Assembly: GCF_018320785.1 (NCBI RefSeq)
Contig: NC_054875.1
Span: 2,733,001-2,797,000 of the forward strand
DNA length: 64,000 nucleotides
From: Cheilinus undulatus
Lineage: Eukaryota > Chordata > Actinopteri > Labriformes > Labridae
Direction: 5' to 3'
This document shows, piece after piece, positions 1-23,245 of the stretch. A program made the position numbers and the translations under genes. A model generated the notes under the pieces. That model did no database searches and was not told the DNA's origin. It worked only from the letters and a program-made list of their open reading frames with translations. Each line of letters starts with the position of its first letter. Position 1 is the stretch's first letter.

Positions 1-1560
1 GTAACGGGTGTGAACAACAGAGCCACATTTACATAAAGTCCACCCAAATCAAGCTTCTGAATCGGACTGGTGACACTCATCAAAATATTCCCATAGGAAA
101 TCTGCCTTCATCAACTTGCCCTGTCGAGTGATCCTGAAGTCGTCCCGAGTCTGTTGATAGTTACTGCTGCTTCTTCATCGTCTCTTCTACTTTTCTTCGC
201 TGCAGGGTGCATCTTGAGGCTTGCTGATAAAGGTGAAACTACAAACAGCTGTATACGTGATGAGGGGGGTGGAGTTTGAGCCATGCGATGTTTATTATTG
301 TCCATCTCAATGGGCGAAACTGGGAACAATGGAAGACTGAGTGGCCAATTATCACCCTGCAGTTTTGCTTTTGCCTCCCCTCAATCTCCTTGCAGCAACT
401 GCGAGAATAGGGCATTTTAAAACACAAAATTAACGCTTTTAAATGTCATCTTTGTGTTACTTTTTTCATCGAATGAGTAGTTTAAATGTCGGACTTGCAT
501 AAAATGAGAAAAAAAAGGAAAATGATCATTTTGAAGAAAACGACTTTGTATCCATTTTTCTGAACCAGCGGAATGCCGACTTGCAGGAACTTTATCTGGC
601 TTTGGTCACATATAGTTCCAAGAACACCATCATTCCCTCCACTTGTGTGTCCTCATCCATGTTGGGTGTTGTGTTCTCTGGTTGTTGCTATGTTTCTTCT
701 TCTTTTTGTCAGATCACGTGTGATCACGCGAGATTTCTGGCTTGGGGGACGAGATTCTAGATCGGTGGTGGGACAGAATCATGATGTGTGTGGTGTGCTG
801 TGTTCAGATTATCGGAGCATACCACACACAGTACGATCAAAACTGTTCAGTGCCTGATTTTTATCTTTGTGTGGGGTCTCTAACAGATCAAAAATCTCTT
901 AAGATTTAGAAGATCCTTATGTGTGTACCCCGCTTAAGACAAGTTCACACTTAACAGCATCAGTCAGGTGAAGAAAAAGAGAAAGGAGGCCAAGGGATCA
1001 ATAGAGGCTGTTTGAGCAAAGTCAACAGGTAAGCTCAATCAAATTTCAAGTACCCAAGACACTGTGCCCCAGCTGATATGGAAGCTCTCTCTCTCTTTTT
1101 CCTTCTCTCCCTCTCGTGCGCACACAACTATGCGTGCATTGGCGCACTAACATTTAAAATAAACATTCAACATGTAATTTTCATGGACTGCATGTCTGAA
1201 TGCAGTCAGCACACTGGGCATTGCGGCCAGATTTGCATGATACTTTGATTAAACGCACCGTGTTGTCCAGTTTTCTTTGATTTGTTGAGATTTTTTCTGT
1301 TGACTGAAAACTCTTTGGTGACCTCAAACTTACTCTCAATGACAGGCAATCCAGTGAGGTTCATTTTGTGCTTCACAGCCGTTTTATCAGAAAGTTGTTA
1401 CTTTCAGGATTGTTACGGCCTCTTAAAAATGATTAATTTAAACCATAAAAATGAGGCTCATACACAAGAGACCAATAACATATTAAAAGGACACAGACAT
1501 GAGTGGTTTGGGTTTCAAAACAATAATCCAAGCTTTATTTATATTGCAATAGTTAATTGA
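1..1560. other. Non-coding stretch, no gene seen
   Basis: I see only short random frames with no domain, no paired splice sites around a long frame and no repeat I can name. A pyrimidine-rich tract lies near 1085-1120. Confidence 0.5.
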
Positions 1561-1631
1561 TCAATCCAACAGTAAATAAATAAATGAATGAAATTAAAAA
1601 GGCTGTAGCCGCCAGCCAAAAAGAACAAAAG

Positions 1632-1686
1632 AGGGGTGGTGGACTGGCTAACCTCGCAATGGGCCATTGGACCAGCCACCACCCCT
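1632..1686. repeat. Short inverted repeat (hairpin)
   Basis: AGGGGTGGTGG at 1632-1642 is perfectly complemented by CCACCACCCCT at 1676-1686, giving an 11-bp stem around a 33-nt loop. Function unknown. The surrounding 1561-3830 is otherwise non-coding, with a TATA-like CTATATAAGC near 2309 but no reading frame attached to it. Confidence 0.6.
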
Positions 1687-3899
1687 AGCTAAAACTACCT
1701 AACCAAAAAAACTTAACTATTTAATCAAGGAAAGAAAAAAACAAGAAAATAGGACTACCGATGACTACAGCCAAACCAAAATGACAAAACCCAGCAATCT
1801 AAACACGCATGGGAATTTAAACGGATGGAGAAAACAAACGCTTGAAAAAATGAATTAATTAATCAACGAAAGAAGAATGTTAAAGACTCTGTAGAGTAAA
1901 AATAAATCTGTATTTATGTTTGTTGTATGATAGATCACTGTGTTATGAACCCCCAGGTCAAATTTCAGTCCAATAAAGCATCTACAAGTTTATAAAATTA
2001 AGTTTTAAATCATGAAAAATGAGGCAGTAAAATCTGCTCCAGGATGGTGTGGGCGTGTCTGTTGAATGCGCTGAAACCACGCCCACTCAGGACACAGGTT
2101 GTCTGCAGCATTAACCCCCTCACTCATGGTGTCATACTTGGAAAAATAGTTTCCCCTAAAAACATGAACCAATAAACAAAACATGCATAACTGAATGTAG
2201 CCGGCGGCCTTTTTGTTCCTTTTCAGCTCCTGTAGTTTAGGTCACATGGGTAGGTTTTTGCTTTGGTGGCACCGCCCACTTCCTAAATTTGTGAACAGGT
2301 ATCCTACTATATAAGCAGCTCCGCTTTGGCACGTGGGAGGCTGCTTCTTTTGTTTGATCCCCTTGCTACTGGGCTGATTCCTGGATGTGGTGCTGTTAGT
2401 GTAGGCCGACTGAGACGTATGGGTAAGCGAAGGCTCTTGATGCACGTGGCACAATTGTTTTACACCATCTTATGATTGTTTTTTTTTGTCACAGATCCTG
2501 CATTGTAGCGTTGACATGGACGGTTGAATCATTACTGCTGCGCTTCTAAGGTATATAAACAGTTTTCTTAAGTCAGCATATGATGGGCATTTTGATATGT
2601 ATTTGGCAGCATCATGTTAACATTTTAAATTAATCTCTTTGTAGATTTACTGCCACTGCTGCTTTGTTTTAGGGTTTTGTTTTAGCGCTTTATTTTGTTA
2701 GTTTATTTTGGTGTTTATCTTTAGTATGCATTATTTGGGTTAAGTGTATAATCCGTTTTGTTTTGGTTTCTTAGAGAAGCGTTTTGTTGTTATATGTTAG
2801 GTTGATTGTTTCCCTTTCTTTGTACATTATTGTTAACTTTGTTTTTCTTCTGTTTCCCCTGGGTTCACGGAGTATTGCAGACCGAGGGGTGTCCGTCACC
2901 GAGCGCGTTGGGGCTGCCGGCGGGGATAGGCCTCACCACCTGCACCTCACTTTCCTTTAATTATGTGTGAGTGGTTTTTGGCACTTTTTGATTTCTCTCA
3001 CTAGGCATGTTTTTCTTTCTTTTTGGTTGCAGTGTGAGTGTGTGTAGGGTTTGGGCACTGTGTGTGTGGTAGATAGTCTCCTCCCCAGTTGCTAGCGAGT
3101 TGATACACCCTTTGTCTGCAATATTCAGCTTAACGATTTGTTTGGTTTAAATCTTTATCTAATGAAGAAAGTTTGTGGTGTTTTAACAAGTGCACATTTT
3201 ATAGAGAGTCAGTAATAAATCTTATATTTTTTTCTACAAGTAAGACTGACGTGTTACCATTTTAAAAGAAATCTTCCAAATAAACCACATTGTTTGAGCG
3301 TAAAACTTGTCTGACTGATTTACTTTGCTGTCAATTTGCTGTCTCACATGTGTCCTAAGGTGAATGTGTGTTTGGGATAATTTTAAATGCTTTCCAAAAC
3401 ATAAGTAAAATAATTTGGCCTAACCTGGAGCCCGGCCACATATAACTTCGCAATGAAACATGAACATTATAGAACGGTACAAGAGTACAAGACTGAATTC
3501 CTTTGCACAAAATGAACCAGAAGTCCCTGCTCCAGGTGACTGCTTCCTTCCATAGTATTGTAGTGTTAGAGGGGCGGGGTCATTCTCTACACATTTTGGC
3601 CCCACCCACATGAAACCAAGCCAGGAAAGAGATGAAATGGCCTAAATCCAGAATTCAGTCTCATGTAGATCTCAGAGTTTTCACATGTTTACAGCAACCA
3701 TATTCCAACATTTCTAGAGTGTTAAGACAAAAACTTTGGATTTCACTTTACTGGATCTTTAATAAAACAGAGCTGTCTGGATCAGCTCTTTTCCCCTGCC
3801 ACTCTAAATACTCCCCTCCCCCACACTAAGTGCTAACAGCATTCAGGTGTGCTGCAGCCTCGCAGGTAGAGGGAGGAGGGAGACCAGAGAGCCAGGGGG

Positions 3900-4275
3900 A
3901 GAGAGGGCATGCAGCACTCCGGGCCGCATATAACAGGATTCAGTGCCACAAGCGCACTGGCCAGTTGTGAGTTGCACTCGCTGATTCTTGAATCATCTCA
4001 CCAAGCACCGCATAGATAGTGCTAAAATACAGCCTCCTAAGTTCTGTTTCTTCATCTTCATCCTCCCTTTCATCTGTAGTTCCCAGAACCACATACATAT
4101 CCAAGTTTGTGTTTGCTTTGCGTCTCTGTTTGGGCACTGCTGGTGTTAAGGATGCACTTGCGCTGGCAGCGGAGGCCGAGTCCCACACCTTACTGAACTC
4201 AGCATCACAGGCCTGTACAGTGGTGCAGTGGTGTGGGGAGGAGGGGGCGTGGCCTGCAAATGCCCCCGACGCCAA
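3900..4275 (-). pseudogene. hAT-type transposase fragment (decayed)
   Basis: On the minus strand a frame reads a Lys/Arg-rich linker (PKQRRKANTNLDMYVV) followed by ELRRLYFSTIYAVLGEMIQ. This matches the pattern seen in fish hAT transposases and ZMYM1-like domesticated relatives, where an acidic stretch precedes an 'LRR.(F/Y)F...D.V..EM..RF' helix. Right after EMIQ the family-like continuation (ECNSQLASALVALNP) moves to another frame, so the copy is frameshifted. Only about 110 codons remain, with no catalytic core or C-terminal dimerisation region. It abuts the left end of the large inverted-repeat unit at 4290, but its other half is not seen beyond 20217, so I cannot show that the unit inserted into it. 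Confidence 0.6.
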
Positions 4276-4289
4276 TACCGCTCTCTACT

Positions 4290-6310
4290 AACCCAGTCTC
4301 ACAAAAATACGTGAAATACTCACGAAGTTTAATCTATTGAGTCGTGTCCATGGACACGAATTTCTGCTTTTTCTCGTGTTGAACTAAATCCCATTCATTT
4401 GAATAGGCAGCATCTTTCGTGCTGACATCACGTTTTCTTCAAGAGCAGGAAAGAAGCTATATTGGGTTTTTAATCCACTCATAAAGCGTAATAACTTGGT
4501 ATGTATTAACGATAATTCATCGGGTTGCTTTTGTTTTTAATTTTGCTTTCATTACGTCGTCATACGAGCATACATTGTTACGATTTCAGAATTTATAATC
4601 GTTTTTTTACATGTCGATGACTTGTTCGTACTGTAAGATTTCACTGAAACTCTCTCCGCTTTTTCCTGTCACCTTGTGTTCTTTTTAGACTTATTTTCCA
4701 GGAAAATGGCCTGTATTCGCAATTTTTAGCTTCCCTTTAAACTGTTATTACGGTAATTATTACCTCCCATAATTCTCAGCGAGTGTTACGATGAGAACGG
4801 AGAACAGAGTCTGCTTCTCCGTCAGCTTCCTGTCTCTGCAGGGCGTCATGCATGTAAGTATCATGGTCGTTATGATTCTGCATGTTATTTTAAATGTTTA
4901 CATGAACGCCTTTCTGTGCTTCACTAGCGTGGTTTAAGTACCAGGGCAGCAGAAAAAGTCAGGCTAATGAGATCACTATTATCATCCGAAAGAGTAATAA
5001 GAGTATCTGCATGGCCGTTTTTCTATCAATTCAAGCTAAGAAACTCTGTTGATACAGACTGAGTGTAAAGTGGAGTATTACTAATGACCATGAATACTGT
5101 CCATTAGTTTTTCACTAATTAAACGTTTAAATGTCCACTGGTCGGACCCCCATGTGTGCCCGGACACTTTATTGTGACGGACGCTGCATTTCATTTAAAG
5201 GTCCTCAAATATACGTAAAACCACCGCTGCAAAATCTGCATCAAGGAATTCTATAACATCATCAGTTCCTCCAGTCTGGGAATTCTTGATATCCTTAATT
5301 TTAAAATTGAGCATGAAGATGGCTGAAGAGGAAAACCTTGGAACATTTAGGCTAGAGGCAAACATCTATGTAAAAACTCTATGCAGGTGTTACAAGGTTA
5401 TTGAGGACACAGATGAATAGATTGATTGAATTTTTAAATTATGGTGAAAGGCTCATTTCAGCAACAGCCATATTTGTTATACAGGGATTGGTATCTTACA
5501 TAAAAGCACACCTCTTTTAAAAATACTGGTAATGTTGATTAAGTTCTTACTACAGTCTTTAAGATTATATAAAATGACACTACACCAGTGGAGTTTCAGA
5601 GAACTAAGTGGTCATTCGTTACTTTTCCTTTATTTCTCATCAGTTTTAACAAGTCAGCCTCACAAGATTTTTCTCTTCAAAACAGAGAGCAGCTGAGGAC
5701 GGAAAGGAACAAATCCTGGAGAAAACCCTTCACAGGACTCCAAGGGGACTGGATTCATGTGGTGGAGGTAAGGTTTACTGTTAATATGCACAAACAATCA
5801 GCATATCAGATAAATAATTAATTTGGTTATTCAGAATTAGCTGAATTGGCCAAGTATGCCTACACAACAAGGAATGTGACTGGTTAATTTTGCTCTCAAT
5901 GTACAGGAATTAAACATTGAAGATAAAAAATAAATAAACCGACAAAAGTATAAAAAAATAAGATTTAGATGTATACAAGCTATTGTTGGTATTATTTCTA
6001 CAATAAACAAGTCTATGAGTATTGTTAGTGTGTTTGCAAGATTCACAGAGGATGCAAGGATGCTGACTAGACATGATCAGAATATATAAACAGTTATATT
6101 AAAAAATATTTTTTGTAAATATTAGCCTGCTTCAAACCATTTTCTTAGTTAAGTTTTTGTCTTCCAGAACCAGATGTGTTTGGATGGCTTTCAGGGCTCC
6201 CCTCAAGACCACCGGCCATCAAACTTTAACATCATAGCAGAGAGCCCTGCTCATAACTCTAGTTCAGTGGGTAATCACTGAGAACCAAAGGTAAGAGAAA
6301 AACACTGAAT
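4290..6310 (+). repeat. Left arm of giant inverted repeat
   Basis: This 2.0 kb arm matches the reverse complement of 18171-20217 almost base for base. The match begins at AACCCAGTCTCAC and stops abruptly after AACACTGAAT at 6310. Visible differences are a few percent or less, plus one roughly 20-bp extra stretch in the right arm near 19785. A perfect 16-bp palindrome, CGTGTCCATGGACACG, lies about 53 bp inside the end (4343-4358) and recurs at 20149-20164. The arm contains a donor-like GTAAGT at 4854 and three exon-like blocks, described separately. No target-site duplication is visible at the outer ends, so a transposon origin is likely but not proven. Confidence 0.9.
5313..6281 (+). CDS. Putative small three-exon gene in left arm (103 aa, unknown function)
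   Basis: Model: join 5313-5386, 5644-5767, 6168-6281. The first coding exon opens after an acceptor at 5200 and ends CTATGCAG/GT. The second is bounded by TCTCATCAG and GAG/GTAAGG. The third follows TTTTTGTCTTCCAG and has TGA at 6279-6281, with a donor (AAAG/GTAAG) 9 nt later. Phases agree across both joins and the frame stays open for 103 codons, starting MKMAEEENLGTF. A possible 5' non-coding exon ends at the strong donor 4853/4854. The product is hydrophilic and Lys/Arg-rich in the middle (REQLRTERNKSWRKPF), with no signal peptide, membrane segment or domain I recognise. The same model exists in the right arm. It could instead be a non-coding transcript or a chance frame; no transcript evidence is available here. 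Confidence 0.4.
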
Positions 6311-7553
6311 GGGTGTAACTTGATTTATCCCTAATAAAGTGAATCTTTTTTAAATTATGAGTTCACATGGGTTGGGGACCTAATTTGATGTTTTTGGCTA
6401 GTGTTTGGCTGAAGTTATTGTAGCATGACTGCCCAGTCTGTTTAAAAGAAAGTGGTAATATACTTCATGCATTAAGTTTTTTCTTTGACAGGGACTGATG
6501 TTCTAACAACACACCCCCTTTTACTGGAGTTAAACACATTTTTTCTGTATTAATGTGCTTTAAATGTGATGCAAAGTTTTATGTGTATTTTTGTCAATCC
6601 AGTGAAATATATGAAAGGCAGAAAGTCCTAATCAGGGGGGAAATAATGTTCATGCTGGCAAGGACACTCTGGGGCAGACGGAGGACTTTAGCTGTAAAAT
6701 GAGAGAGGTCAGCAGTGAAATGATCCAAAGCAACTTGTGGATGACAACAGCATTAGCATAACAGTCTGTTTATATTTAGATTTTTACCTCATTCTAATGA
6801 ATCAATCCAAGATAAATGTTACATTTAACATTAGAATCAATTAGTCAATCTTTGTATTGCCACTTCATAACTGGAGTGACACTTCACAAAGAGGGCAGGT
6901 CTAGACTGTACTCTCTGTATTATAAATGTAGAGGATGTACTAAATTAGGTCATGCTGTAACTGCAACACTCAAACATATGGTTGATATACAAATAATCAG
7001 AAATTGTTAAAAGTAGAAATAAAAAAAATTAGGAGTGGCATGGTGGCAAGTCTCTTCTTTAGAAAAACTGTTTGATCAAGTATTAACATGGCTGTGGACC
7101 TACGCTCTACACCTGTAATGAGGGTCAACTAATTTCCCACTTCTAGGGCTCAATAAATACATCAGTTGTCAAATGTAACTCTGACCCCTATCTTAACAGA
7201 ATATTATACTTCATGTGAAGACAGATAATCTAAATTTAATGTAATTAGCATTTCTTCCTGTTTTTACACGTGACTACACTGTAATCATAGATTTCTTTCT
7301 TGATTTTATGTTTGATTTTAAATGTATGTTTTTTTTCTTTTTATGTATGATTCATTTCAGATCTTTCTGAGGGAAAATTTTGAAGGTGTTTATGTTTGAG
7401 ACCTTTAGGTATAGAAAAGACTTTTTTCGTCTTGCCAGATGTCTAGTTAAGGGATGTACTCTGTTGCAGAAGAGCCACTGACTTCCCTATGAGTGGAAGC
7501 ACATAAGCACACAGAAGTTGTCGTAGTGCTATCTTAAATGAATTTCTCTGAAT

Positions 7554-8335
7554 CAGAGGTAGGAAAAGTATCAGACTGTTGTACTCAAGTAAAAGTACAG
7601 TCTACAGTTACTCTGTTTATAGCTTGCTTGAGTAGAAGTAAGAGTACTGGTCTATAAATCTACTCAAGTAAAAGGAAAAAGTAAGTCATTTAAAACTTAC
7701 TCTAAGTACTGAGTGGCTACTTGTGATACCCACAAGGCTTTCACATTGAAATCCGACCTCTCCTTAATGTGCAACAACGACAACAAAATATGGACCTCCA
7801 ATTAGGTTGTTTATTATAAGGTTGACCTAACCTAAAGTACAATGCAGGAGCTGTTTGGGAGGAAATATTGAATCATTCTCTGCTATGTGCATGTACTGAC
7901 CATCATGTGTTGTGAAAGCTAAACTGGTAATTTTCATGTTGTTGGCAGAAAGCTTGGAACCCCTGGTTGTGGCGTTTAGTGTAATTTTTTTTTTTTTTTA
8001 CTTAGCACACAATGCTTTTTCAAATGTAATTAAGCAAAATACTTCAATGAAATATACTGCAGTAAAAGTAAAAGTAGTAATTTTAAGGATATTACTCCTA
8101 CTTTCATACTATACTATTCTTGTTATGACTATTGCGGTCATGTGGTGATTTCATAATCATCACTTGTGTTCTCTGTATTTTTTTGGCTGTGTAAAGCACT
8201 TTGACTGCTGTCTGTGAAAATTGCTATATAAATAAACTTTACTTAATTACTTTAAAAATGACTCAAAAAAGTACACAAAAAAGCTACTTGGTTACAGTAC
8301 TGTGTGTAAATGTAATCAGTTACTCTTCACCACTG
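7554..8335. mobile_element. hAT-type miniature element with 8-bp TSD
   Basis: The left end CAGAGGTAGGAAAAGTA and the right end (reverse complement CAGTGGTGAAGAGTAAC) form imperfect terminal inverted repeats of the fish 'CAGTGGTGgaaAGTAAC' type. The flanks CTCTGAAT (7546-7553) and CTCTGAAA (8336-8343) form an 8-bp target duplication with one mismatch, as expected for hAT. The ends are rich in ACTCAAGTAAAAGTA motifs. It has no transposase and is non-autonomous. A retroposon-like tail (CTATATAAATAAA) sits inside near 8220. Confidence 0.85.
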
Positions 8336-8930
8336 CTCTGAAATGATCTGATGTATGTTCATACATTTACAGCCAGTCCCTCAGCTGAAAGGCTGACTAC
8401 CACACAGTGAATCAGTACTATGACCAAAAAAAAAAAAAAAAATAGGACCTGATCGCCTGTTTGTCAACATCAAACTAAGCAATTGTTCAACACCAAACCA
8501 ATATAAAGAAATTAATAAGAGTTTGATAATTTAACAGCACTTAGACATAAGTAATACAGTTGGAGTTATCTAAAGCTTGACCCAAAAGAGGCATAGACAT
8601 AGTCACAGCATCTTTATTTCCGAATATCAATATATATGTTCTGTGGAGAGTATAAATAACACATTAACCAAATGATGAACACTGGGCTACTGCAAACATT
8701 CAGAGTAGACTGTCGTCATTATGATGAGCTTTATCATTTCTTGGATCTTTGTCCTGCTCTACAATCAGTTGAGTAGTAGTTTGTGAATCAATGAGCTGAT
8801 ACTGATTCTGTCTTCCAGGTTGGCCTAGCTTCCCTTCCTTTCAGACAGACTTCCATCAGTCTAGAGCCACCATCATCTAACCAAAACAGGTGGGTCTAAG
8901 ATGATGACTGGCACTTGAGTGAGTTTAAGA

Positions 8931-9093
8931 CATGGGTTCTCAAAGTGCTGCCCACAGGCCAATGGTGGCCCGCAATTGTTAAATATTTTTGTTAAATGTC
9001 TGTTTTTTTCCATTTTTTTCCCCTTCAGAGGCCCTCAGTCTAATGTTGGGTTCCTAAATAGGCCCTCAGCTATCAAAACATCAAGAACCCCTG
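8931..9093. mobile_element. Short hAT miniature element with perfect TSD
   Basis: The ends CATGGGTTCTCAA and, in reverse complement, CAGGGGTTCTTGA are imperfect inverted repeats. GTTTAAGA is duplicated exactly at 8923-8930 and 9094-9101. The 163-bp body contains two 'GGCCC(T)CA' blocks typical of fish hAT miniature elements. It has no coding capacity. Confidence 0.9.
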
Positions 9094-12000
9094 GTTTAAG
9101 ACTTGATAATTGATGCTGATTGGCTGTTTCATTTCTTGACAAAACGGTACCACACATTCACAGAAATGTTGAAGCTTCAATATCCCAGCTCTTTTCTCTA
9201 TTCTGTCCGTTTCTTATTGCTCAGTGCTGCATCACACATTTTTTTGATCTGATTGGTTGTTGCATTGTCCATCACCATGGGTAATGCACTGTCGGAACAG
9301 AGAATCAGCGACAATGTTGGAGCTATGCTCATACCTGGCAGTGCAAGGCTAACCCTACAATAATTTTTCAGTTTCATAATGCAAATGAGTCCAGCCATGT
9401 TAGGCCAGTTTAATAATAAATGTCATTTCTATTATTTCTGTGTATTGTGAACCTTTATAACACTACTGTGCTATTTTTCCATCAGTGAAATGGAAGTGTC
9501 AATATTTTCTTTGCTTTCATGCAACACTTATGTCACCTCACTGACACGACAGAAGAGACTTTAGAGTACCCCTGCTAAGTTGTCTTTATCATGTTCCTTA
9601 ATGAATAATCCGCCTTATTATGACCATTTCACATATTATCACCTTGTAAAAACAGTATAACCCACACTTTCACACTTTTAATTTCCTCTAATAATGAGGT
9701 CCAGCACACAACATCCAGGCAAAGTCAGTGGAGACATTGAATCAATGTCTAAAAATGGCAGTTCTTGTAATTTTCCTGTAAAAGCCAGTCCCTTTAACTC
9801 TTTGTTTATTGCAGAAAATAATTTAAGTTTAATTTCTGAGAACTCCGTTACTTTCCTCTGAACTAGTCAACAAGTAACTTGTTTGAAAATTATTTCAGAT
9901 TTAATAAAAAGCAATCAAGTTTGTGTACGTATGTGTATATAAGCATAAATCTATATAAATTTATATTTGATAAAGGAAATAAAATTGTTAATGAATTTCT
10001 AATTCCGATAATAGCAAATTAGTGAATTAGGGAGAAGGGGTGGCATTAATTAAGTGTTTACTTCCTCCCACTTCTTTTTGGATGTATAAATCAAATAGTT
10101 ACATGTGACATTTGAAATGCACTGTATTTTTTATTTTTATTTCTTTTTTTTTGTCTAAGAGCATTATTTGCTTTCATTGTATGACCACTTTGCACTCTGT
10201 TTTACACATTCAAAATAAATATCTATCTATGGAGAATTTAAAAAGTATGCTGACCACCTGAACTTTACATTTATCTGTTGAAGTTTAGACAGCCAATGCT
10301 GTTTTGTCTGTTTCTAATCTTGCCTTTACTGTATCCATTAACAGAATAAAATCTGTAAAATTTAACATTATCACTCTTTGTATTAAGACGCCTGTTAAGA
10401 GTCATATATACACACACATGCTTATACACACACACGTTAATTTCACCCAGCCTGCTCTAAGATGTATTATCTTGTTATCCTTCACAGATGGAGATTGTTC
10501 ATGCTGTATCGTCCTCTTCACTTTTGATGACAAGAAGAAGAGTTCAGAAGGAAGTGGCAAAAGTTGGGACTGTGAAACAAATTTACAAATTGAGGTCGCA
10601 TGGTCCAGTGGAATGTTTTTCAGACATATGACTTCACTGCATGTCTGAAAGCATCCTGAAAACATCTAGAACTTTAAAAATGCTTGAAAACATGTTACAC
10701 TTCCTGTACTTGGAGCTAAATTGTCATTACGGTTTAATGTCTTCCCAAACCCAGACACTCTCTGAAACATTGAAAGTCTTCTACAAAGTTTTGTAGTTCA
10801 TTGTTGTTATGACATGAGGGATCTTCTCTTGGGTGTTAGGGCTACAGCTATGGTTACAGCTTGAACTTTAGCACAACATATAACTTTGTTTTAATATCTT
10901 CTTTTTCTTAGGTTTGACTTATTTTTGCTAAACGATGATGAGCCATAATTCACATGCTGAATTTTAAATTAACTTTTGACAGTCATCAGAATGTTCTAGT
11001 CAGTAGAATTAGGACAATCTGCATGTCTGAAAGGACTGGATATGTACTGTGCATTTCATCTGTGATATTAACATGATAAGATGCAATAAAACATAAAACA
11101 CAAGTTTAACTGTGCAGAATGTTCTTTTAATTTCAGAGAAATGTCCAGAAATACAGTATATGCTACTGAATTACACTGCTCCTGAAAAGATTAAAAAATA
11201 AGTCAGAGATGGAAAATAGTGGTTTAAATTAAACAAAAAATATGTGTGAGCAGAGACTGGCAACCCACCAGAGGAAGAAGAAAGAAGAAATGTTGCAGCT
11301 TAGAGAAAATACAGGACGAGATAGATATGCACCTGTTATAGAAGTATTTCTATGTTTTAGCTGCTAAGAATCTATGCACATTTTAAAACCATTTTTCATA
11401 CTGTTAAGCATACAGACCACGTATGTGAGGAGTAGTGAGATGATGATGAAGAAGGAAGAACACATGGGTCTGATGCTCACATCTCCATGTCTTTGAGTTT
11501 ATCTCTTTCTGTTGACTTTAGGTTTAATGGGAACACTGTACTGGGTGGGGCTGAATACAGCAGGACCTGGATTATTTTAGTAAGATCTCATAGGCCTAAT
11601 CAGTTGAAACCTACCTGTTTTATCTGTAAGACTGACTTACAAAACAAAAAGCTTATTACATCATTAATTGTGGGCAAAAATGTAACTTTTGATTTAAAAA
11701 AGCTTCAGTGAATGAAACTGGGTAAAAATGCCCTAATATATTTGCTTCTGAGATGTGTTAATGGATGAAGGTGAATGTAGTGGAGGGGTAAAATAGCATT
11801 CAAGGCTCATGAATGACAATGTATTACAGTAGTAAGTATTTAAGTAGTTTCAGACAATCTGTGGAGGAAAAGTGGAATATGTAGACTTCAGGTAAGTACC
11901 CTAACCCTAACCAAAGCCCTATAAGCCATCATCTAAGCCTAAATCCCCCTTATTGTATACTCTTCTTGATCAAAAACAAACAAAAGAACATATAAACAAA

Positions 12001-13973
12001 CATGAAAACAAGTAAACCAACAAAAGATAAACAAATAAACAAATGTCTAAATTTTATGGAGATGGGTGTTCAAAGTATCCCCTGACACTCCACTTCTTCT
12101 CCTGTCCCAAGATTTTTGGAATGTTTAAGTTTTTGCCATAGAGCTACAATACATATATCATTGGAAAGGTCTTATCATGGGGAGAAACATAACAGAAGAC
12201 GAGGTCTCTACATGACCCCTGCTGTGAGATAATGACCTTTGAACCTTTGACTCAGGGCATTTTTGAAGGCTTATAACTCAACAATAAAAGGGACTACAGA
12301 CATGAGACCAACTGTAATAGAAAGGTCTTGACCCCAACTATCATGTGGGGTCAATGAACAACAGGGGGCGCTATCAGCAATGTGGAAAACATGGTTAAAA
12401 CACATTTTCTCCAATTTAACAGTTATTTTATAAAACAATTCTTACATAGATGTGTTCAGCATCCACGTAAACCCCCATTAGGTCCTGAATTTATTCCTAG
12501 AATCATTCCATAACGGAATAATAGCTAAAAATTTAAATAAACTACAATTCCCTACAGTCGCAGCATGCAGCCTGAACGTAATCAGCGCCATATTTGTAGT
12601 TCTTTTTGGTTTCTAAACTAGGGTACAAAATAGGGTCATGAAACATAATTCCCCTTCAAATATTAATCATTTCATACAGCCGAAATACTATTAATATAAC
12701 AAGTAGATGATCTATTTCACTCTAAAGTCCTGATATCACCGTTTGTCTGAGATTTTGCCGTTTTATCTAAAAACGGCCGTTTGGGCGGGGGGGTCCGCCA
12801 TTTTTGCAAACCACATCCATAAATAGGGTCATAAAAACGTATTTCTGCTTACTTTATGTAAACATTACTACTGCCGAAATAACATATTACTGACTAAAAA
12901 CCTTTGAAACTAAAGGTTTAGTCTTATTTCACATATTTTGGCTGTTACTCTCAAATTGCTGTTTGTTTGCTAGCTCTTCTTGTTTTATCATATCAAACGT
13001 AATTTTTCACATATTTACTTAATCTATAGAATATTTGTTACAGCCGAAGTTGTAGTTACAGGCTATTTAGAAGCAGCATGTAAAGAAAGGATTGCTTTGT
13101 TGATTAATTTAACATATTTCTGATAAAACAAGATGCAAATATGTTGAGATTCTAATAATACGCTAATAATAGAGGGGTAATCCATGTAGAAATCTACTGA
13201 AAAATGGGCAAGCATGTCTTAATTGCCAAAAATGCCTCAGTTGATCACATTTATTTGAAGTATTAATGGGTAAATTGTTATATCTAAAGTAATTTATAAC
13301 TAATTTAAATAAACTTAGATGTCGTTAGCTGTTCCATAAAACAATTTTAGGATAGTTCTCTTCAATTTTTACTTCTATATAATGTTAAACAACCTCCAAT
13401 AAAGTATTAAGTATTGATCCAATGGCACCTTGGTTAGTTGGATTATAAGTTCTAAGATTAAAAAATATAACAGCAACAATACATCTATAGAAACACTTTA
13501 TTATACAGAAAGAGCAGTCAAAATACCGTTTTTTGTGTGTGTAAATGAAACTATCAGCAACACCATTTAAATTAGAAAAAAGGAGTAATCCTGAGATGTT
13601 ACTGGCAGACTGAATATGTCCTGCAGGACAAAAAATAAAGAGCATTATGCATTTTAATATTTCACAACACAAGTCTCACAGCTATGGGTCCTGTAACTTG
13701 GAATAAAGGATCAGTTTGACATAGAGGCATGATTTATAGAAGAACTAAGGTACAGAAATGGTGTATTGTAAATTTATAAAACAGGGAACAAATAGACTTT
13801 CATCCTTGTTATTTTTCATATCTCTTAGTATGTCATCTTATAATTTTGTCACTGTTGTAGGTTTTAGCTTTTTATAAAGGGTCCCAGGCACAGTTTGTAA
13901 AAAAATACACTACCATCACTCTAACAGCAAAATTGCAAATCTGACCCAATAAATGGTTAAGTTCAGTCAGTCA

Positions 13974-14003
13974 GATGATGATGATCATCATCATCATCAT
14001 CAT
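13974..14003. repeat. Palindromic GAT/CAT microsatellite
   Basis: A (GAT)n run flips directly into a (CAT)n run. The tract is therefore both a trinucleotide repeat and an inverted repeat able to fold on itself. Confidence 0.9.
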
Positions 14004-14939
14004 ATAAGTGTGAGTCCTAGGGGCTGAGACAGGCAGGGACTGTCCAAGGTGATGTCACTTTGAAGGGGATCAACCTCTGGTGGGTGGTAAACATTTATGT
14101 AGCAGTATCTAGCCCTTTTTCCACCTGTTCGAGGAGCTGGATGAGAGCAGCTATTCTATCCAGCTGTCTTGTGCCATCAGCAGTAGAGTGCTTGCTACGA
14201 AGGGAAGTGGTCCATCACACTTTTCATGACTGACGAGACTGATCGAACAATCGTTTATGTACAAAAAAAAAGATGGTAGACAAATGTGCAATGTCTGTAG
14301 AGATAAAACTCAATTGTGATGTCTTCATGGAATCAAAGGGATAGTGAAGTCAACAGCAGGGCAGGGCACCCCCCTTATGGAGTCTGGACATAGGTGGTGG
14401 TGGTGAGGGATACAGGATGAGATGAGCAGAGGACTTGTGATGAGCTGAACCTGATGTTGATGAAATGGAATTGAAATGGCTGGGGTGTAGGAGAGTTACA
14501 GCTTTGACTTCAAATATCTGCAGAAGAGAAGAGAATTTAAAATACAAAATCAGCACCATTAGGCAAATGAAGTTGTGGTAAAATCTGACATGTTTACTTA
14601 AAGTCAATGCCCATAATCAGCTGATCACCATAGCAGGAAGGGAAAGGTAAAAAGAGGTAGAGACATGAATAAGCAGTAACTTCATAAATAAATGTGAAAC
14701 AGTCCCCTGCTTGAACTTCCACTGGGCTTCATTTAGTGATCAGTGCAGCGATAGTTAACTATTGTCACTACAGCATCACTATGATGTAAGACCGTTCTTA
14801 CAGTCTCATCAAGGCAGGAGTGCACCGGCTGAGAGGGATTACATCATAATAAATCATCTTATTTCTTAAGGAAGACCCTGAGGTGAGGTTGCATCTGCAT
14901 GGTGCTCTTTCATAAACAGTATCAGCTCTGACAGTCTAA

Positions 14940-15680
14940 CGCCCGTTTCAGACTGGGAGCGTGTTTTGCTGCTTGCGTGTGCCACGCGTCAGCTCCGGCT
15001 CCTGCCGGTGCAGCACACAGGGCGCGAGTTTGCTGCGTGTCAGCCGCATTTTCCTGCTCCCAAAGCCCTGTCCTTCCTCACGAGTTTTACCTGAATAAAC
15101 CCCGCTACATGCTTATTGATTTAGCGTATTGAGGAAGTTTGTTGGGAACTATTAAAAAAAAAAGCATTCTGTACAAGTGAACGGAGTTTCTCTGAAGAAA
15201 TACTAAACTGGGCTTTTACTTTGAAAAAAAAAAAAAAAACAGAAAAGCATTCATACGATGTTTATCTTTCCTGTGATATATTCTAACAGTGTGGAGACAG
15301 AAAGTTTCACTAATAGTTGCTCTTTAGAGAACAACTTTATAAAACAGGCACATTTAAGCTTGTGGCCTTCCTCAGGGTTATCAAGAAACACATTGTAAAC
15401 ATATTCTATGTGCATATTTGCCACAACGATGTAAATATTGCTCTCTATTTATCATTTTCCTGTCTAATATGGTCACCAGCCGCATGCAGTGCGTGGAAAA
15501 AATAGGCGAGACTTCGAATCTCTGAACTCTCCGCGCCTGAGCTGCGCGTATCACCCGCGCGAACCACGGCGCTCATGCTGGCAGTCTGAAAGCCCTGACT
15601 TGTTAACATGCAATCAAACTGAAAATCCACGCGTGTCGCGGTCAAGACACGCGCGTCACGCTCCCAGTCTGAAACAGGCT
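14940..15680. mobile_element. PIF/Harbinger-like miniature element
   Basis: CGCCCGTTTCAGACTGGGAG at the left end is mirrored at the right end, where the reverse complement reads AGCCTGTTTCAGACTGGGAG. The sequence just inside both ends is unusually rich in CG dinucleotides for this window (CACGCG, GCGCG). Flanking TAA and TGA triplets could be a worn three-base TWA target duplication. No transposase frame is present. The superfamily is inferred from end style and TSD length only. Confidence 0.6.
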
Positions 15681-17501
15681 TGACTGTTGATCTGAAGCAA
15701 AAGTCAGAAAACAGACATCCAAGTACATGCATAGGTTAGTGTGTATTATAGTCAGTGTCAAACTCCTGTCATGACTTTAAATACTTCACAGATATTCTTC
15801 TTATCTTCTTACAGTTGCTAACTTGTTAGGAGGCTGCTCATGGACCTGATCTAGACAGCATGCAAGGAGAAGAGATGAAGACACTGTCAAAGCTATGATA
15901 AAGTACCTGTTCATCCACAAGGCTCACAGGGTGGTATTTTATTTCACAGTGTACATAAAGGAATAAGAATTACATTTACAGTAATCTAATTAACTCCTTT
16001 ATCTTGTTAACATTTAAGACTTCATAGTGATATTAAACTCATTAATCCATTCAGTTCAGATCATTACATGCTGATCTGTTGCTTGTATGGCCAAAGTCTT
16101 TACTCTTTCTGCATCTTCATGTCTAGCTCTGAATCCAATGCTGTACAACAACAATTACAGAGGAAAGGCAGCCTTCTGCACTAAAAGTAATTTGTGAATA
16201 AAAGCACAAGACCAACTTTAAAATAAATCAGTATAATGGCTTAATTGGTGATTCTCTGCTGAGAGATCTTCTTGTGAAAGAACAGTTATTTTGAAAGCTT
16301 AAACCGACCAGCACTAGGAACAAAGACATTTTTACATGAAAAATATAACATTTATAAAACATTAAACCACCTTAGTGGAGTGGGCAAACCTTGGTCTGGA
16401 GATTTCCTCAGTCTGTCTCCATTCCTTGGACGTACTGTATGTGAGCCAAACACAAGGAACCTCTGGTGCTGGATGATCTGAAATTTAAATAAAGTTTCAG
16501 AACCTCACAAACTCAGACAGTAAATTTAGATCATTGTAAAGTGTAGCTAGCCAATATCAGACAAAAACAAGCAGCAAAAATGTTAGCATTTACCATTTCT
16601 TATAATCCTTTCCAATTTCTTTCCATTATGCAGCAAAACACAGAACAATGAAGGCCAAGCAGAGTAAATGAGATGTGGCCAAAAATCAGTACGATTATTC
16701 TGTATGCTTGGATTGGCACAAAAATTTGTGGGGTGTCCTGTCCTGATTTCTGGTTAGAAGCAATCTAGATACAATAGATGCAATATAGCAAAACATTTGA
16801 TGGAAGTGTTTTGATAAGCAACAGCCAGTGAACAAATAAGGAACTCTTCTGTTCTTAGAGCAAAATTCTAAAAAGATAAACACAGGTTATTTTACATATG
16901 CAGCCCTTATAATGCAGAGAAAACAAATGCATTAATACTATTACTATTTGATGAGAATATTTAATGGTGCTGTGAAAAGATTTTTATATAGATTCAGTCA
17001 GTGCTTTAACAGTACAAATCTGAGTAATAAAAACAAATTCAGGCTGCAGCTTAAACTAATTTATGGGCATGAAGTCCAATAATCCAACTGTGAGAGAAGA
17101 TCCATCAAACTTCTCTTATGGAAGTCATGATCCATAAACTGACATATGAACTACCCATATGTAAACCAAATGAACAAGCAGCAGTCATGGAGGACATTAC
17201 TGTTTCAAATACAAGTTTACGCTAGTAAGTTATTTTAAAAAATATTGACAGCTTTACATACCGCTTCATAATCACATGTGCTCTATGAATTATTTAATTG
17301 TTCTAATAATATAGAGAGTAAAACAACTGAGAACAGTGTGTAATCCAGTGCAGGTGTTCATTTTACATCTACAAGAAAAAATTAAATTTTCACTGGGAGA
17401 TCTTCAAATTGACTTACTAAAGCAACTTTCACTGCAGTACACACCCCTTCACAGATACCTGACGCCTCACAGACACAGACTTGTTGTCTAAGACTTCTCA
17501 C

Positions 17502-17579
17502 CCGTACATGGTTGGAGACCAGGGGTGCAGGCTTTTTATTCAGACTCACAAATCTGAACACTGAAGGTACAGGACAACC
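17502..17579 (-). other. Exon-like block with good splice sites
   Basis: On the minus strand this 78-nt block follows TTTTTATCTTTAG and ends ACGG/GTGAGA. It is open in one frame for all 26 codons (GCPVPSVFRFVSLNKKPAPL...). The VPSVF motif resembles the end of THAP zinc-finger domains, but no upstream C2CH residues are visible, so this is only a hint. It lies downstream of the right-arm gene and could be a 3' exon of that transcript. Confidence 0.25.
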
Positions 17580-18170
17580 CTAAAGATAAAAATGAAGAAA
17601 AAAGTCATAAGCAAGGAAGTCTACCATATCTACACAAGACAAATGAACATCTTTACATTTTCATACAGGTATTCATTGTTCATAGGACTGGATTATTAAC
17701 CGGTTAAAGGTAGCAGCAGTGACTGTTTTAACAGTAAAGTGACCTGTACTAACAATTACCTTCAAATCTTTGATATATTTACATTATGAACCTCATGGCT
17801 CTCAGGTACACTGAGACATAACTCCTTGGAGGAAGGCCCATGGTAAGCTTTCTGTAAGAAAGATTGATATCTATACCAACATTTTTGGGCAACAGTCTAC
17901 AAGACAACAGAGACAGGTATTATGTACAACATCTATAAAAGGATTAAGACTAACGCTATATGTGCAAGCATAATAAGTTAGCTGACAACAAAAAAGTGTT
18001 GTTCCTATGTTTTCAACCAAACATTACAATGGTTTTGCTTCAGTGCAGCAGTAGAAAAAGCAAATACTGAAACATTTATGTTACAATATCTTACAGTATG
18101 TACATGTTTATTTTAGATAGCTAACTTTGAAGCTATAATTCATAAAAAAAATTAAACACTTTCAAAATCA

Positions 18171-20217
18171 ATTCAGTGTTTTTCTCTTACCTTTGGTTCT
18201 CAGTGATTACCCACTGAACTAGAGATATGAGCAGGGCTCTCTGCTATGATGTTAAAGTTTGATGGCCGGTGGTCTTGAGGGGAGCCCTGAAAGCCATCCA
18301 AACACATCTGGTTCTGCAAGACAAAAACTTAACTAAGAAATGGTTTGAAGCAGGCTAATATTTACAAAAAATATTTTTTAATATAACTGTTTATATATTC
18401 TGATCATGTCTAGTCAGCATCCTTGCATCCTTTGTGAATCATGCAGCCACACTAACAATACTCATAGACTTGTTTATTGTAGAAATAATACCAACAATAG
18501 CTTGTATACATCTAAATCTTATTTTTTTATACTTTTGTCGGTTTATTTTTATTTTTTATCTTCAATGTTTAATTCCTGTACATTGAGAGCAAAATTAACC
18601 AGTCACATTCCTTGTTGTGTAGGCATACTTGGCCAATTCAGCTAATTCTGAATAACCAAATTAAGTATTTATCTGATATGCTGATTGTTTGTGCATATTA
18701 ACAGTAAACCTTACCTCCACCACATGAGTCCAGCCCCCTTGGAGTCCTGTGAAGGGTTTTCTCCAGGATTTGTTCCTTTCCGTCCTCAGCTGCTCTCTGT
18801 TTTGAAGAGAAAAATCTTGTGAGGCTGACTTGTCAAAACTGATGAGAAATAAAGGAAAAGTAACGAATGACCACTTAGGTCTCTGAAACTCCACTGGTGT
18901 AGTGTCATTTTATATAATCTTAAAGATTGTAGTAAGAAGAACTTAATCAACATTACCAGTATTTTTAAAAGAGGTGTGCTTTTATGTAAGATACCAATCC
19001 CTGTATAACAAATATGGCTGTTGCTGAAATGAGCCTTTCACCATAATTTAAAAATTCAATCAATCTATTCATATGTGTCCTCAATAACCTTGTAACACCT
19101 GCATAGAGTTTTTACATAGATGTTTGCCTCTAGCCTAAATGTTCCAAGGTTTTCCTCTTCAGCCATCTTCATGCTCAATTTTAAAATTAAGGATATCAAG
19201 AATTCCCAGACTGGAGGAACTGATGATGTTATAGAATTCCTTGATGCAGATTTTGCAGCGGTGGTTTTACGTATATTTGAGGACCTTTAAATGAAATGCA
19301 GCGTCCGTCACAATAAAGTGTCCGGGCACACATGGGGGTCCGACCAGTGGACATTTAAACGTTTAATTAGTGAAAAACTAATGGACAGTATTCATGGTCA
19401 TTAGTAATACTCCACTTTACACTCAGTCTGTATCAACAGAGTTTCTTAGCTTGAATTGATAGAAAAACGGCCATGCAGATACTCTTATTACTCTTTCGGA
19501 TGATAATAGTGATCTCATTAGCCTGACTTTTTCTGCTGCCCTGGTACTTAAACCACGCTAGTGAAGCACAGAAAGGCGTTCATGTAAACATTTAAAATAA
19601 CATGCAGAATCATAACGACCATGATACTTACATGCATGACGCCCTGCAGAGACAGGAAGCTGACGGAGAAGCAGACTCTGTGCTCCGTTCTCATCGTAAC
19701 ACTCGCTGAGAATTATGGGAGGTAATAATTACCGTAATAACAGTTTAAAGGGAAGCTAAAAATTGCAAATACAGGCCATTTTACAATGTTACAATGTCAT
19801 TTTCCTGGAAAATAAGTCTAAAAAGAACACAAGGTGACAGGAAAAAAGCGGAGAGAGTTTCAATGAAATCTTACAGTACGAACAACACATCGACATGTAA
19901 AAAAACGATTATAAATTCTGAAATCGTAACAATGTATGATCGTATGACGACGTAATGAAAGCAAAATTAAAAACAAAAGCAACCCGATGAATTATCGTTA
20001 ATACATACCAAGTTATTACGCTTTATGAGTGGATTAAAAACCCAATATAGCTTCTTTCCTGCTCTTGAAGAAAACGTGATGTCAGCACGAAAGATGCTGC
20101 CTATTCAAATGAATGGGATTTAGTTCAACACGAGAAAAAGCAGAAATTCGTGTCCATGGACACGACTCAATAGATTAAACTTCGTGAGTATTTCACGTAT
20201 TTTTGTGAGACTGGGTT
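18171..20217 (-). repeat. Right arm of giant inverted repeat
   Basis: This is the inverted copy of 4290-6310, about 26 bp longer because of small insertions. The outer end reads CTGGGTT and is followed by GAAATACAGC, which does not duplicate the sequence left of 4290. Splice signals and the small gene frame are retained. The high similarity of the arms implies a recent origin or ongoing homogenisation by gene conversion. Confidence 0.9.
18200..19172 (-). CDS. Mirror copy of the small three-exon gene (103 aa)
   Basis: Model on the minus strand: 19172-19099, 18838-18715, 18313-18200, with the same phases and stop as the left-arm copy. The first coding exon is identical. By eye I count four base differences over the 312 coding bases, changing Asn to Asp, Asp to Gly, Ile to Thr and Asn to Ile, with no stop, frameshift or lost splice site. 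The third-exon acceptor reads CTTGCAG here instead of CTTCCAG. Because all differences change an amino acid, intactness may reflect youth rather than selection. Function unknown. Confidence 0.4.
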
Positions 20218-21499
20218 GAAATACAGCTGTTACATTTACTCTGCTCTTCAGTGACGTTTAGAGTTTACAGTGGGAGAAGAAAACAAGAACATGGGGAGAG
20301 TCAGGGTTTATCTCACTCAGTCAGCACCACATTTATTTTAGTTTCACTGCTCTGCAGACGTTTATGAGAAAGAACAGGAGTGTTCAAATCACAGCAACAG
20401 AAAACTCTACACAGCATAGACTGACCTCATATACTCAGGATGTGGTGAAAGAATGGAGCATGGTCCTGACTTTAACACCTTCAGCACATAGATGAAGTAA
20501 ACATCAGTCACTGTCTCTGTCAGTCTCCAGATCCTCTGCTGGGGTTCACTGGTTCTACTGATCATTAGTCAGATCTTTTTAATGTTATTCAGTTTTATTT
20601 TGAAGGGGCAGCTTTCAGAGACTCTCATCTAGAAAGGAAAAGGATGATGGAATAAAGTAGACTAGAGATAAAGCAGCTGGGTCTTGGTAGGTGAAGCATC
20701 AGTCTGTGCTGCTGCTGTGACTCATGGAGGGTTAGAGGATTTCTCCTCCTTCATGGCTCTAACACATCAGTCAGAATGATCTGGGAGGGGGAGAAGACCC
20801 TGGGACCCACATCTGAAATCCTGCTAGGACAGTGGTGTAGTAGAGGCTGTAGCGCTCCATTCTAGTCATTTCTAAGTTTGCAGGAAAGAAAAAGTCTGAA
20901 CCTTTGAAGTTTTCTGCTTTTCTGCATTAATGATCATCAAATGTGTCCTGATCTGTTTCTAAGTCACAAGTTCAGACAAACACAATGAGTTTAAGCTAAA
21001 ACCACAGAAATAATCAATATATTTACAGTCTCTACTGAGCATTAAACATCCACAGTGCTGCTGGAAAAGGACTGAACCCTGGATTTAGTCACTGGTTGGT
21101 CCTCCTTAGGGGGCAGAACAGAGACTCAGGAGGTCCCAAACATTTCTGTCCCTAAAGTCAGAGAGCTGAAAGTTAGATCTGTGTCACACTGAGAGTTAAT
21201 GGTTAATGATCACACTTTAGAAAATACAGGAACATGTCTGTGTTCAGATCCTGAACACAGATTTAGAGATATTTAGCAGATTTATAGAGGAGGATTCAAA
21301 CAGGACTGTGGCCTCACTAAGGATCTTTCTATCAGCCTCAGTTATCACCTGGTACCAGATCTGACTCTATTAACCAAGATTAAATGACTGATTTATCCAC
21401 CACAGTAAATCTAATGATCAGGTCTGTAGAAAGAAAGCTGCTGGTAAATAATCTACTGGTTTATTCAGATATTTAGGAGTAAATGTTCAGAATCCTCTA
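20218..21499. other. Non-coding stretch right of the inverted-repeat unit
   Basis: No gene is recognised. A 48-codon minus-strand frame near 20410-20560 (…YFIYVLKVLKSGPCSILS…) has no clear start or splice context. An AATAAA on the minus strand near 20335 could mark the 3' end of an unseen minus-strand transcript, but nothing confirms it. Confidence 0.4.
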
Positions 21500-22110
21500 A
21501 AGCAGCGTTACCCAACCAGAGAGACAAACTGTTGAAGAATAAAACAGCAAGAGCCACAGTCTAAGAGGTGAAAAGTGGAGAAAATGTGTTAAAGTGGCAA
21601 AATAGGCATTAATTTGCAAAAAAAAAAGTGTAAAAACATGGGAGAAAAATTGACATAAATGGATAACAAAAAAATGAGTTACAGGTGGCAAAAGTGGTCA
21701 AAAAACAGAAAAATGACTTTAATGGGCAGAAAGCAGCAAGAGTGGTGAAATGGGGGAAAAAGTGGCTTCAATGGAAAAAGGCTGGCCTTAATGGGCGAGA
21801 AGTGGAAAAAATTTAAAAAGGAAGGGGGGAAATCTGAAAATAGCACAAAGCAGGTTAAAGAGGCAAAAAATGGTAAATAACGGGGCCAAAGACAGGATTA
21901 AGACAACAAAAATTGGCTTAAAAAGCAGCAAAAATGATTAAAAGTGGTAAAAAAAGGGGGAAAAGTGAATAAAAATGGAAAAAAGGATTAAAAGTTGCAA
22001 ATAAATGGTCAAAATGGGTAAAAAAAAAAAGTGGTAAAAAGGTGTTATTTTAATGAAAAAAGGTAGCTTAACTGGGTGAAAAATGCCAAAAATGGGTTGT
22101 AATGATTTTA
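21500..22110. repeat. A-rich 'AAGTGGCAAAA' dispersed element, first copy
   Basis: The sequence is built from irregular repeats of GTGGCAAAA, ATGGGC and AAAAAGTGG on the plus strand. It opens with CAGCGTTACCCAACC and an AAGAGCCAC motif close to those in the element at 63071-63696. The edges are approximate, because I could not find a clean target duplication for this copy. Confidence 0.6.
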
Positions 22111-22383
22111 AAAGAGGCTCTGCTGGTTTTACAGCAGGCTGTGAGGTCAATCAGCTGTCAGACTGATGCTGTAAGAAAAACCCCTAACCAGTCTGTACTT
22201 CCTCTTCCTCTCTCCTCCTCTCCTTCAGTTTACCTCTGGGTTAAACTGAGAAGCGAGCAACGACGATAAAGGAAACCAGTCTGACATGAGAAGGACCTGA
22301 TGGTTCATCTAAATCTCTGACACTGTCGGAGTTTTATCTCAGACTACCTTAGACCATCTGTCCTCTGTCTGCCTGTCTGGATA

Positions 22384-22768
22384 GAGGTAGAACCAGAGAG
22401 GTAGAACCAGAGAGGAAGAACCAGAGATGAAGAACCAGAAAGGAAGACCCAGAGAGGAAGAACCAGAGAGGAAGAACCAGAGATGAAGAACCAGAAAGGA
22501 AGACCCAGAGAGGTAGAACCAGAGAGGTAGAACCAGAGAGGTAGAACCAGAGAGGTAGAACCAGAGAGGTAGAACCAGAAAGGAAGACCCAGAGAGGAAG
22601 AACCAGAGAGGTAGAACCAGAAAGGAAGACCCAGAGAGGAAGAACCAGAGAGGTAGAACCAGAGAGGTAGAACCAGAGAGGTAGAACCAGAGAGGAAGAA
22701 CCAGAGATGAAGAACCAGAAAGGAAGACCCAGAGAGGAAGAACCAGAGAGGTAGAACCAGAGAGGTAG
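22384..22768. repeat. 14-bp minisatellite (GAGGTAGAACCAGA)n
   Basis: About 27 tandem units of a purine-rich 14-mer. The main variants have GAGGAAG, GATGAAG or AAGGAAGACC in the first half. Since 14 is not a multiple of three, every minus-strand frame cycles through the same 14-residue peptide (Leu/Ser/Gly/Phe), which explains two long overlapping open frames that are not genes. Confidence 0.95.
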
Positions 22769-23094
22769 TGGGAGGACTAGTCTTAGTGCCTCGACCACAC
22801 ATACTACTAGGATCCGTCATCCTCCATGTGGGACAGCCTAAAACCAGAAGAGCCTAGACCAGGGTTAACATTCTTATCTTATTGTGGAAGTGAACGGAAA
22901 CGCCCTCATGCACACGGAACGAGTCTTTCTCCTCTTGTTACGAGGTACGTCAGTTTTTCACTCTCTTCATATTTTCTCTAAACTAGTTCTCTAGTAAACA
23001 TTAAACATAGTTAAAGTGGTTTATTTTGGTCTTAATGCTGAAACTCTCTCAGAGGAAGTCAGTCATGTTCCAGAAAGTTCCATAAAGAAACAAT

Positions 23095-23245
23095 GGTGGT
23101 AGACGGCTCTTGTCCCTGCGCTGCAGGACAGAAATATTTAGAAAATCTTTCATTCCATCAGCAATAAGACTTTATAATTCTACCGTAAACAGATGAGAGA
23201 GACTCCAGACAAATGAATTCCCCTTCGGGGATAAATAAAGTTATT
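23095..23245 (+). mobile_element. LINE 3'-end fragment
   Basis: One frame reads RTEIFRKSFIPSAIRLYNS, the very C-terminal motif of fish non-LTR reverse transcriptases ('R..F..SFIP.AI.L.N'). It is followed within 60 bp by the usual TTCCCCTTCGGGGATAAATA tail. Only the last roughly 150 bp are present, a typical 5'-truncated insertion. The clade is not assigned. Confidence 0.75.

Follow-up and report, generated by a model that had tools for sequence, protein, structure and literature searches.

A ~16 kb unit in a stretch of 64,000 nucleotides from Cheilinus undulatus (C11:2733001-2797000; the whole stretch is referred to as the window) is very probably a member of a non-autonomous transposon family of the KDZ (Kyakuja-Dileera-Zisupton) type. 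The unit has inverted arms at 4290-6310 and 18171-20218 that are ~98% alike. The observations that carry this reading are sharp ends common to several loci, an interior that these loci have in common, 7-bp duplications at some of the copies, and a relative on C4 that has the same ends together with coding pieces for a KDZ transposase and its companion CxC3. From these we infer that an enzyme of the C4 type moved the window family.

When the two arms were compared in a gapped alignment (4290-6310 against 20217-18171), they were 97.7% identical over 2048 columns with gaps counted, and they diverged by 0.94% substitutions with gaps ignored; they were also recovered as five ungapped pieces of 97-99% each. 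Chance cannot account for an arm match of ~2 kb. The inner borders were sharp at 6310 and 18171, and so were the outer borders, where one extra terminal base per end belongs to the element. This base is a C in most copies, while the window copy has a T at 4289 on the left and a G at 20218 on the right. The termini of the family are CAACCCAGTCTCAC...GTGAGACTGGGTTG, or (C/T)AACCCAGTCTCAC...GTGAGACTGGGTTG with the variable first base. At E 0.001, a six-frame scan of 4290-18170, the right arm mirroring the left, revealed no Pfam domain; the sole sub-threshold match was DUF2157 (E 0.088; 13 bits, where the cut-off is 32.4), and the four C4 gene pieces had no match in the window by tblastn. The first-pass annotation had described ~2-kb inverted arms with small differences and sharp inner stops, and no mobility gene, and our results agree on both counts. 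The features of the unit are as follows.

4289..6310, plus strand: left arm, a long terminal inverted repeat (TIR) with terminus TAACCCAGTCTCAC, its first base T versus C in most copies.
18171..20218, minus strand: right arm, a long TIR with terminus CAACCCAGTCTCAC when read inwards.
6311..18170, unstranded: interior without a recognisable protein domain, with 1.9-3.1% substitutions against five other copies over 10.8-11.7 kb aligned.
4342..4359, unstranded: perfect 18-bp palindrome TCGTGTCCATGGACACGA near the terminus, which the right arm also has.
5404..5737, plus strand: arm block also found at a single place in the C4 relative, upstream of the KDZ piece of C4 and on the same strand.
6168..6290, plus strand: exon-like block with AG/GT borders conserved in 4/4 aligned sequences (the window and 3 diverged relatives).
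10936..12929, plus strand: interior stretch whose two main blocks are 88-90% identical to the C4 relative, reflecting either common interior sequence or a repeat that inserted into each.

The palindrome is a candidate transposase-binding site. The block at 6168-6290 is a putative exon, and a second exon-like block at ~5644-5767 has an AG border that is not conserved across the four aligned sequences.

We searched the genome from which the window comes (1,173,462,691 bases, 46 contigs) with the left arm. The search yielded at least 59 matches, many being pieces of one unit; 40 of the 1239 first-look candidates were scored, and 59 is a lower bound. Twenty stretches around some of the arm matches were taken for comparison. 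Five units of 14.9-16.7 kb, the window unit and four others, share arms, interior and termini, and the two-arm structure is thus repeated at four loci besides the window. The copies and relatives are listed here.

C6:16545421-16561389: two-armed copy C6a, interior 1.9% substitutions from the window.
C8:839052-855780: two-armed copy C8, interior 2.1% substitutions from the window.
C6:16348411-16363332: two-armed copy C6b, interior 2.5% substitutions from the window.
C14:1563853-1579325: copy C14a, interior 2.5% from the window, right arm matching over 1.36 kb only.
C3:7051809-7073270: rearranged C3 copy without a left terminus, interior 3.1% from the window.
C14, ~80 kb from C14a: short two-ended relative C14b, 3.4 kb.
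C3:4990177-4992761: short two-ended relative C3mini, 2.6 kb, right border uncertain.
C2:53876037-53877532: short two-ended relative C2mini, 1.5 kb.
C6, C19, C28, C12 and C7 among others: single-ended or truncated relatives; the C28 contig ends inside the unit.
C4:14951842-14976276: C4 relative, 24.4 kb, with termini as in the window family, a 1.02-kb TIR at 97% and a 7/7 duplication.

When 24 flanks of up to 950 bases were compared all against all, a single pair came from the same segment (the window left flank and the C6a right flank, 95.3% over 962 columns), and the only other pair had a 175-base repeat in common (76%). The same TIRs therefore stand at several loci with different flanks, which is the mark of a non-autonomous cut-and-paste DNA transposon. 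The first-pass annotation had proposed the arm search and named a single genomic locus as the outcome that would speak against transposition; the unit is not confined to one locus. Against an assembly artefact, the other outcome it named, stands the recurrence of the two-arm structure at four further loci.

Target site duplications were scored by setting the terminus as CAACCC..GGGTTG and comparing the flanking 7-mers in nine two-ended units. The 7-mers agreed at 7/7 in C8 and C4 and at 6/7 in C14a and C2mini, while the agreement elsewhere was 0/7 in the window copy, 1/7 in C6a, 4/7 in C6b, 1/7 in C14b and 2/7 in C3mini. The flanks of C14b match 8/8 at 8 bp. In the controls, 0 of 72 pairs with flanks swapped between units reached 6 of 7 or better, and 0.24% of 10395 overlapping trials with shifted borders did so. 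Because four of the nine units show 6/7 or better, far over both controls, we conclude that the family inserts with a target duplication, best read as 7 bp, whose length is not constant in the nine-unit set. The earlier statement that no target duplication is visible holds for the window copy and fails for the family.

These data also bear on the hypothesis that the unit is a single inverted segmental duplication that is not mobile and whose arms are kept alike by conversion. The arms are more alike within copies than between copies in some cases, and some flanks sit in duplicated segments, as this hypothesis would have it. However, several chromosomes hold the same two ends with different flanks, and target duplications are present in several of these copies. 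The target duplications and the multiple loci refute segmental duplication as the sole explanation, and we regard it as very improbable. What survives of this suggestion in the first-pass annotation is a modest signal of arm conversion, as an addition to a transposon and not as an alternative to it. Its description of a large non-autonomous DNA element is supported by the same two ends at several loci, the different flanks, the duplications at some copies, an element-free paralogue of one flank and the transposase-coding relative.

The link to a KDZ transposase comes from the C4 relative. On its minus strand, CxC3 (PF18804, E 1.9e-12) precedes a piece of KDZ transposase (PF18758, E 2.1e-12), and a further KDZ piece (profile positions 164-203, E 0.071) falls below the cut-off. 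CxC3 upstream of KDZ on the same strand is the cysteine-cluster arrangement of the KDZ superfamily, which is present in C4 and absent from the window unit. A KDZ transposase is thus encoded by an element bearing the window-family termini in the case of the C4 relative, not in the window unit itself. A whole-genome profile search with PF18758, in which 9/9 first-look candidates were scored, gave a single match at E 0.001, inside the C4 unit. The C4 counterpart of the arm block at 5404-5737 lies at 22061-22426 of the fetched unit, outside the C4 TIR and upstream of CxC3 on the transposase strand. The idea of a new type of giant-TIR element was too strong, because the KDZ transposase of the C4 relative places the family in a described superfamily.

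We also considered whether the ends could be moved by another transposase class that makes 7-8-bp duplications, such as hAT or P, with the C4 KDZ gene being a passenger. P elements usually give 8-bp duplications, and the 8/8 duplication of C14b would fit them. It would also fit hAT elements, which usually produce 8 bp according to PMC12730594. However, KDZ and its companion CxC3 were the sole domains in the scanned C4 stretch (minus-strand frames, fetched-unit 9660-25459), and the 7-bp duplications and CA..TG ends of two Kyakuja families in that source fit the window family. We consider a hAT or P transposase improbable. The CCC..GGG ends also raised piggyBac as a candidate, given that a TTAA target and CCC ends are its hallmarks; it was ruled out, the flanks being other than TTAA and the target duplication being 7 bp. 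A Teratorn-like giant piggyBac/herpesvirus element was dropped on the same non-TTAA flanks and 7-bp duplication. In the C12 unit, another copy, a reading frame looks piggyBac-like by eye only.

We compared the window family with known KDZ systems. Zisupton, of the KDZ superfamily, was reportedly first described by Bohne et al. in 2012 from the platyfish. It and the window family have TIRs in common, and the C4 relative, like Zisupton, combines a KDZ transposase with a CxC cysteine cluster; the C4 coding pieces are spread over several frames, as the exons of a split gene would be. Zisupton makes 8-bp target duplications according to PMC12730594, whereas the window family has 7 bp in 4/9 units and 8 bp in 1/9, and its TIRs are 1-2 kb. 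Because an 8-bp duplication was seen in only one of the nine units (C14b), we did not file the family as Zisupton proper. For two TET+ Kyakuja families of Laccaria, the same source gives 7-bp duplications and 5'-CA..TG-3' ends without TIRs (PMC12730594); the window family has such termini, and such duplications in 4/9 units, but its TIRs are very long and it resides in a 1.17-Gb genome. KDZ1 of Cryptococcus neoformans is likewise a large KDZ element with TIRs, but at ~11 kb it carries its own transposase, 241-bp TIRs and 8-bp duplications (PMC12810828). The window family works like a KDZ transposon; what sets it apart as a variant is TIRs of kilobase length, an arm that is doubled in the 16-kb units, and the 7-bp duplication. 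In the open-licence literature, none of the papers listed describes the window family, and no paper came up on long-TIR non-autonomous fish elements or on TIR expansion with gene conversion.

The origin of the 2-kb arms was addressed with three diverged relatives (L030, L031 and L032), which are 74-77% identical to the window unit over longer pieces. On the left, they run from the arm into the interior to 6732, 6709 and 6405, respectively, in each case almost to the limit of the fetched sequence (less than 90 bases short of it); on the right, none of the three extends more than 30 bases beyond the inner arm border at 18171. Because all three pass 6310 yet stop near 18171, the left side appears to be native and the right arm would have been copied from it. 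L030 and L031 may be duplicates of one insertion, because their flanks have reading frames in common. The region C6:16348411-16629714 (16.35-16.63 Mb; L009, L010, L013, L014, L030 and L031) is dense with family copies and fragments, and this crowding together with the shared reading frames suggests local duplications. Next to one of the diverged relatives, L031:224-323 consists of exactly 100 N, as from a scaffold gap.

The left-right arm divergence was 1.78% in C8, 1.84% in C6b, 2.42% in C14a and 2.12% in C6a, and the arms of different copies were 1.3-5.6% apart, mostly 2-5%. The two arms were reciprocal nearest relatives in three of the five copies (window, C8 and C14a), and the C6b left arm was nearest to its own right arm. 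The nearest relative of the C6a right arm was the window left arm (1.34%). Private alleles common to both arms of a copy numbered 3 in the window, 7 in C8, 2 in C6b, 3 in C14a and 0 in C6a, while 113 of 115 cross-copy arm pairs shared 0-2, the outliers sharing 4 (a pair of arms within the C3 unit) and 11 (C14a/C14b). The nearest-relative arms in three of five copies and the both-arm private alleles suggest, with modest support, gene conversion between arms within copies.

The window copy appears to have a history of its own on its left side. The features concerned are given here.

1..4288, unstranded: left flank, the same segment as the C6a right flank, with 38 substitutions in 4266 sites, extending leftwards beyond the window by 3.5 kb or more.
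5114..5371, unstranded: interval where near-identity to C6a ends, the proposed exchange point inside the left arm.
20219..21217, unstranded: right flank, with a 99% copy at C11:1477931-1478929 and part also at C11:1440753-1441505.

The extended match between the window left flank and the C6a right flank showed 45 mismatches in 7815 columns. It persisted ~20 kb out (97% over 658 columns), and no such match was found at two points ~40 and ~60 kb out, colinearity being assumed. When the final 1000 bases of the left flank were searched against the genome (40 of 3151 candidates scored), full-length matches among those listed were confined to the window and C6a, the rest being partial repeats. The near-identity enters the left arm by 0.8-1.1 kb, with 3 differences before 5114-5371 and many after it, at ~2% from there on. 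In addition, among 30 aligned termini, a 10-base deletion was found only in both window arms and the C6a right arm. Because the near-identity of flank and outer arm falls off within the arm, the left side was probably joined to its flank by an exchange, by a segmental duplication with its end in the arm, or by a misjoin there. Such an event would explain the missing target duplication of the window copy, and the lack of a duplication in both C6a and the window agrees with it.

The unit may be a transposon whose left side in the window was placed by inter-chromosomal segmental duplication or exchange, or by an assembly misjoin in the arm, and not by its own transposition. We lean towards this history for the left side, which is favored by the near-identity to C6 that ends within the arm, its persistence ~20 kb out, the missing duplication, and the coincidence of the right-flank border with an element-free paralogue, since the copy at C11:1477931-1478929 begins precisely where the element stops in the window and is itself element-free at that point. 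However, the unit structure is repeated at four other loci, independent of the left junction, and this history bears on one copy and not on the kind of element.

Under the KDZ reading, a KDZ transposase supplied in trans would cut and paste the window family, recognising the CAACCCAGTCTCAC termini and perhaps also the palindrome just inside them, and insertion would leave a 7-bp target duplication. The 2-kb arm would be one end of an ancestral element, the end upstream of its transposase gene; a copy of it would have replaced a shorter TIR at the opposite end, and gene conversion within individual copies would keep their arms alike; we infer this mechanism of arm growth and homogenisation from the sequence comparisons. 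The window copy would have acquired the flank it shares with C6 through exchange or duplication in its left arm, and so lost its target duplication. The fuller scenario, a KDZ lineage with 7-bp duplications in which the transposase-side end was copied by conversion, the TIRs grew from ~1 to 2 kb and were homogenised per copy, and the arms served as sites of inter-chromosomal exchange or duplication, is offered tentatively, and we hold it to be rather doubtful as a whole.

Several results weigh against this interpretation. First, the Pfam scans and the genome search with PF18758 found no KDZ gene in any copy of the window's own subfamily. Second, the C4 relative is ~77% identical to the window unit over the outer 300 bases and ~65% further in, and its 18-bp palindrome is imperfect. 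Third, the KDZ stretch in C4 covers only profile positions 51-167 of 217, once neighbouring bases are included, and contains one in-frame TAA, and for both reasons the C4 transposase copy may be defective; an active source may be absent from the assembly or may have been missed by the search. Fourth, the window copy, C6a, C6b and C3mini lack a duplication, and C14b has 8 bp instead of 7. Finally, the conversion signal is modest, with 2-7 both-arm private alleles in four copies and none in C6a, and the C6b right arm diverges less from the C6a left arm (1.34%) than from the left arm of its own copy (1.84%).

Other repeats were observed in the unit and its surroundings. Nested in the interior, 14945-15675 is bounded by perfect inverted ends of 19 bp (GTTTCAGACTGGGAGCGTG) and looks like a further DNA transposon. 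The segment 7551-8340 contains CAGAGGTAGGAAAAGTA close to where it begins and terminates in CACTGCTCTG, a pattern that we take to be reminiscent of fish hAT-type miniature inverted-repeat transposable elements, and its part 7551-8086 has a 77% copy in the C4 unit. Elsewhere in the window, tandem arrays lie at 57409-62528 (44-bp unit, ~116 copies), 50246-51454 (22-bp unit, ~55 copies, related in sequence to the 44-bp unit), 24212-25473 (42-bp unit, 30 copies) and 43214-43633 (24/48/72 bp).

To our knowledge, few descriptions of animal KDZ transposons exist. The genome studied here contains elements whose termini are identical or almost so: a KDZ-coding element with a TIR of kilobase length, the 16-kb non-autonomous family, in which the TIRs are doubled, and short relatives of 1.5-3.4 kb. 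With these elements one can ask by what route very long TIRs come about, what keeps them alike, and whether such TIRs provoke duplications between chromosomes.

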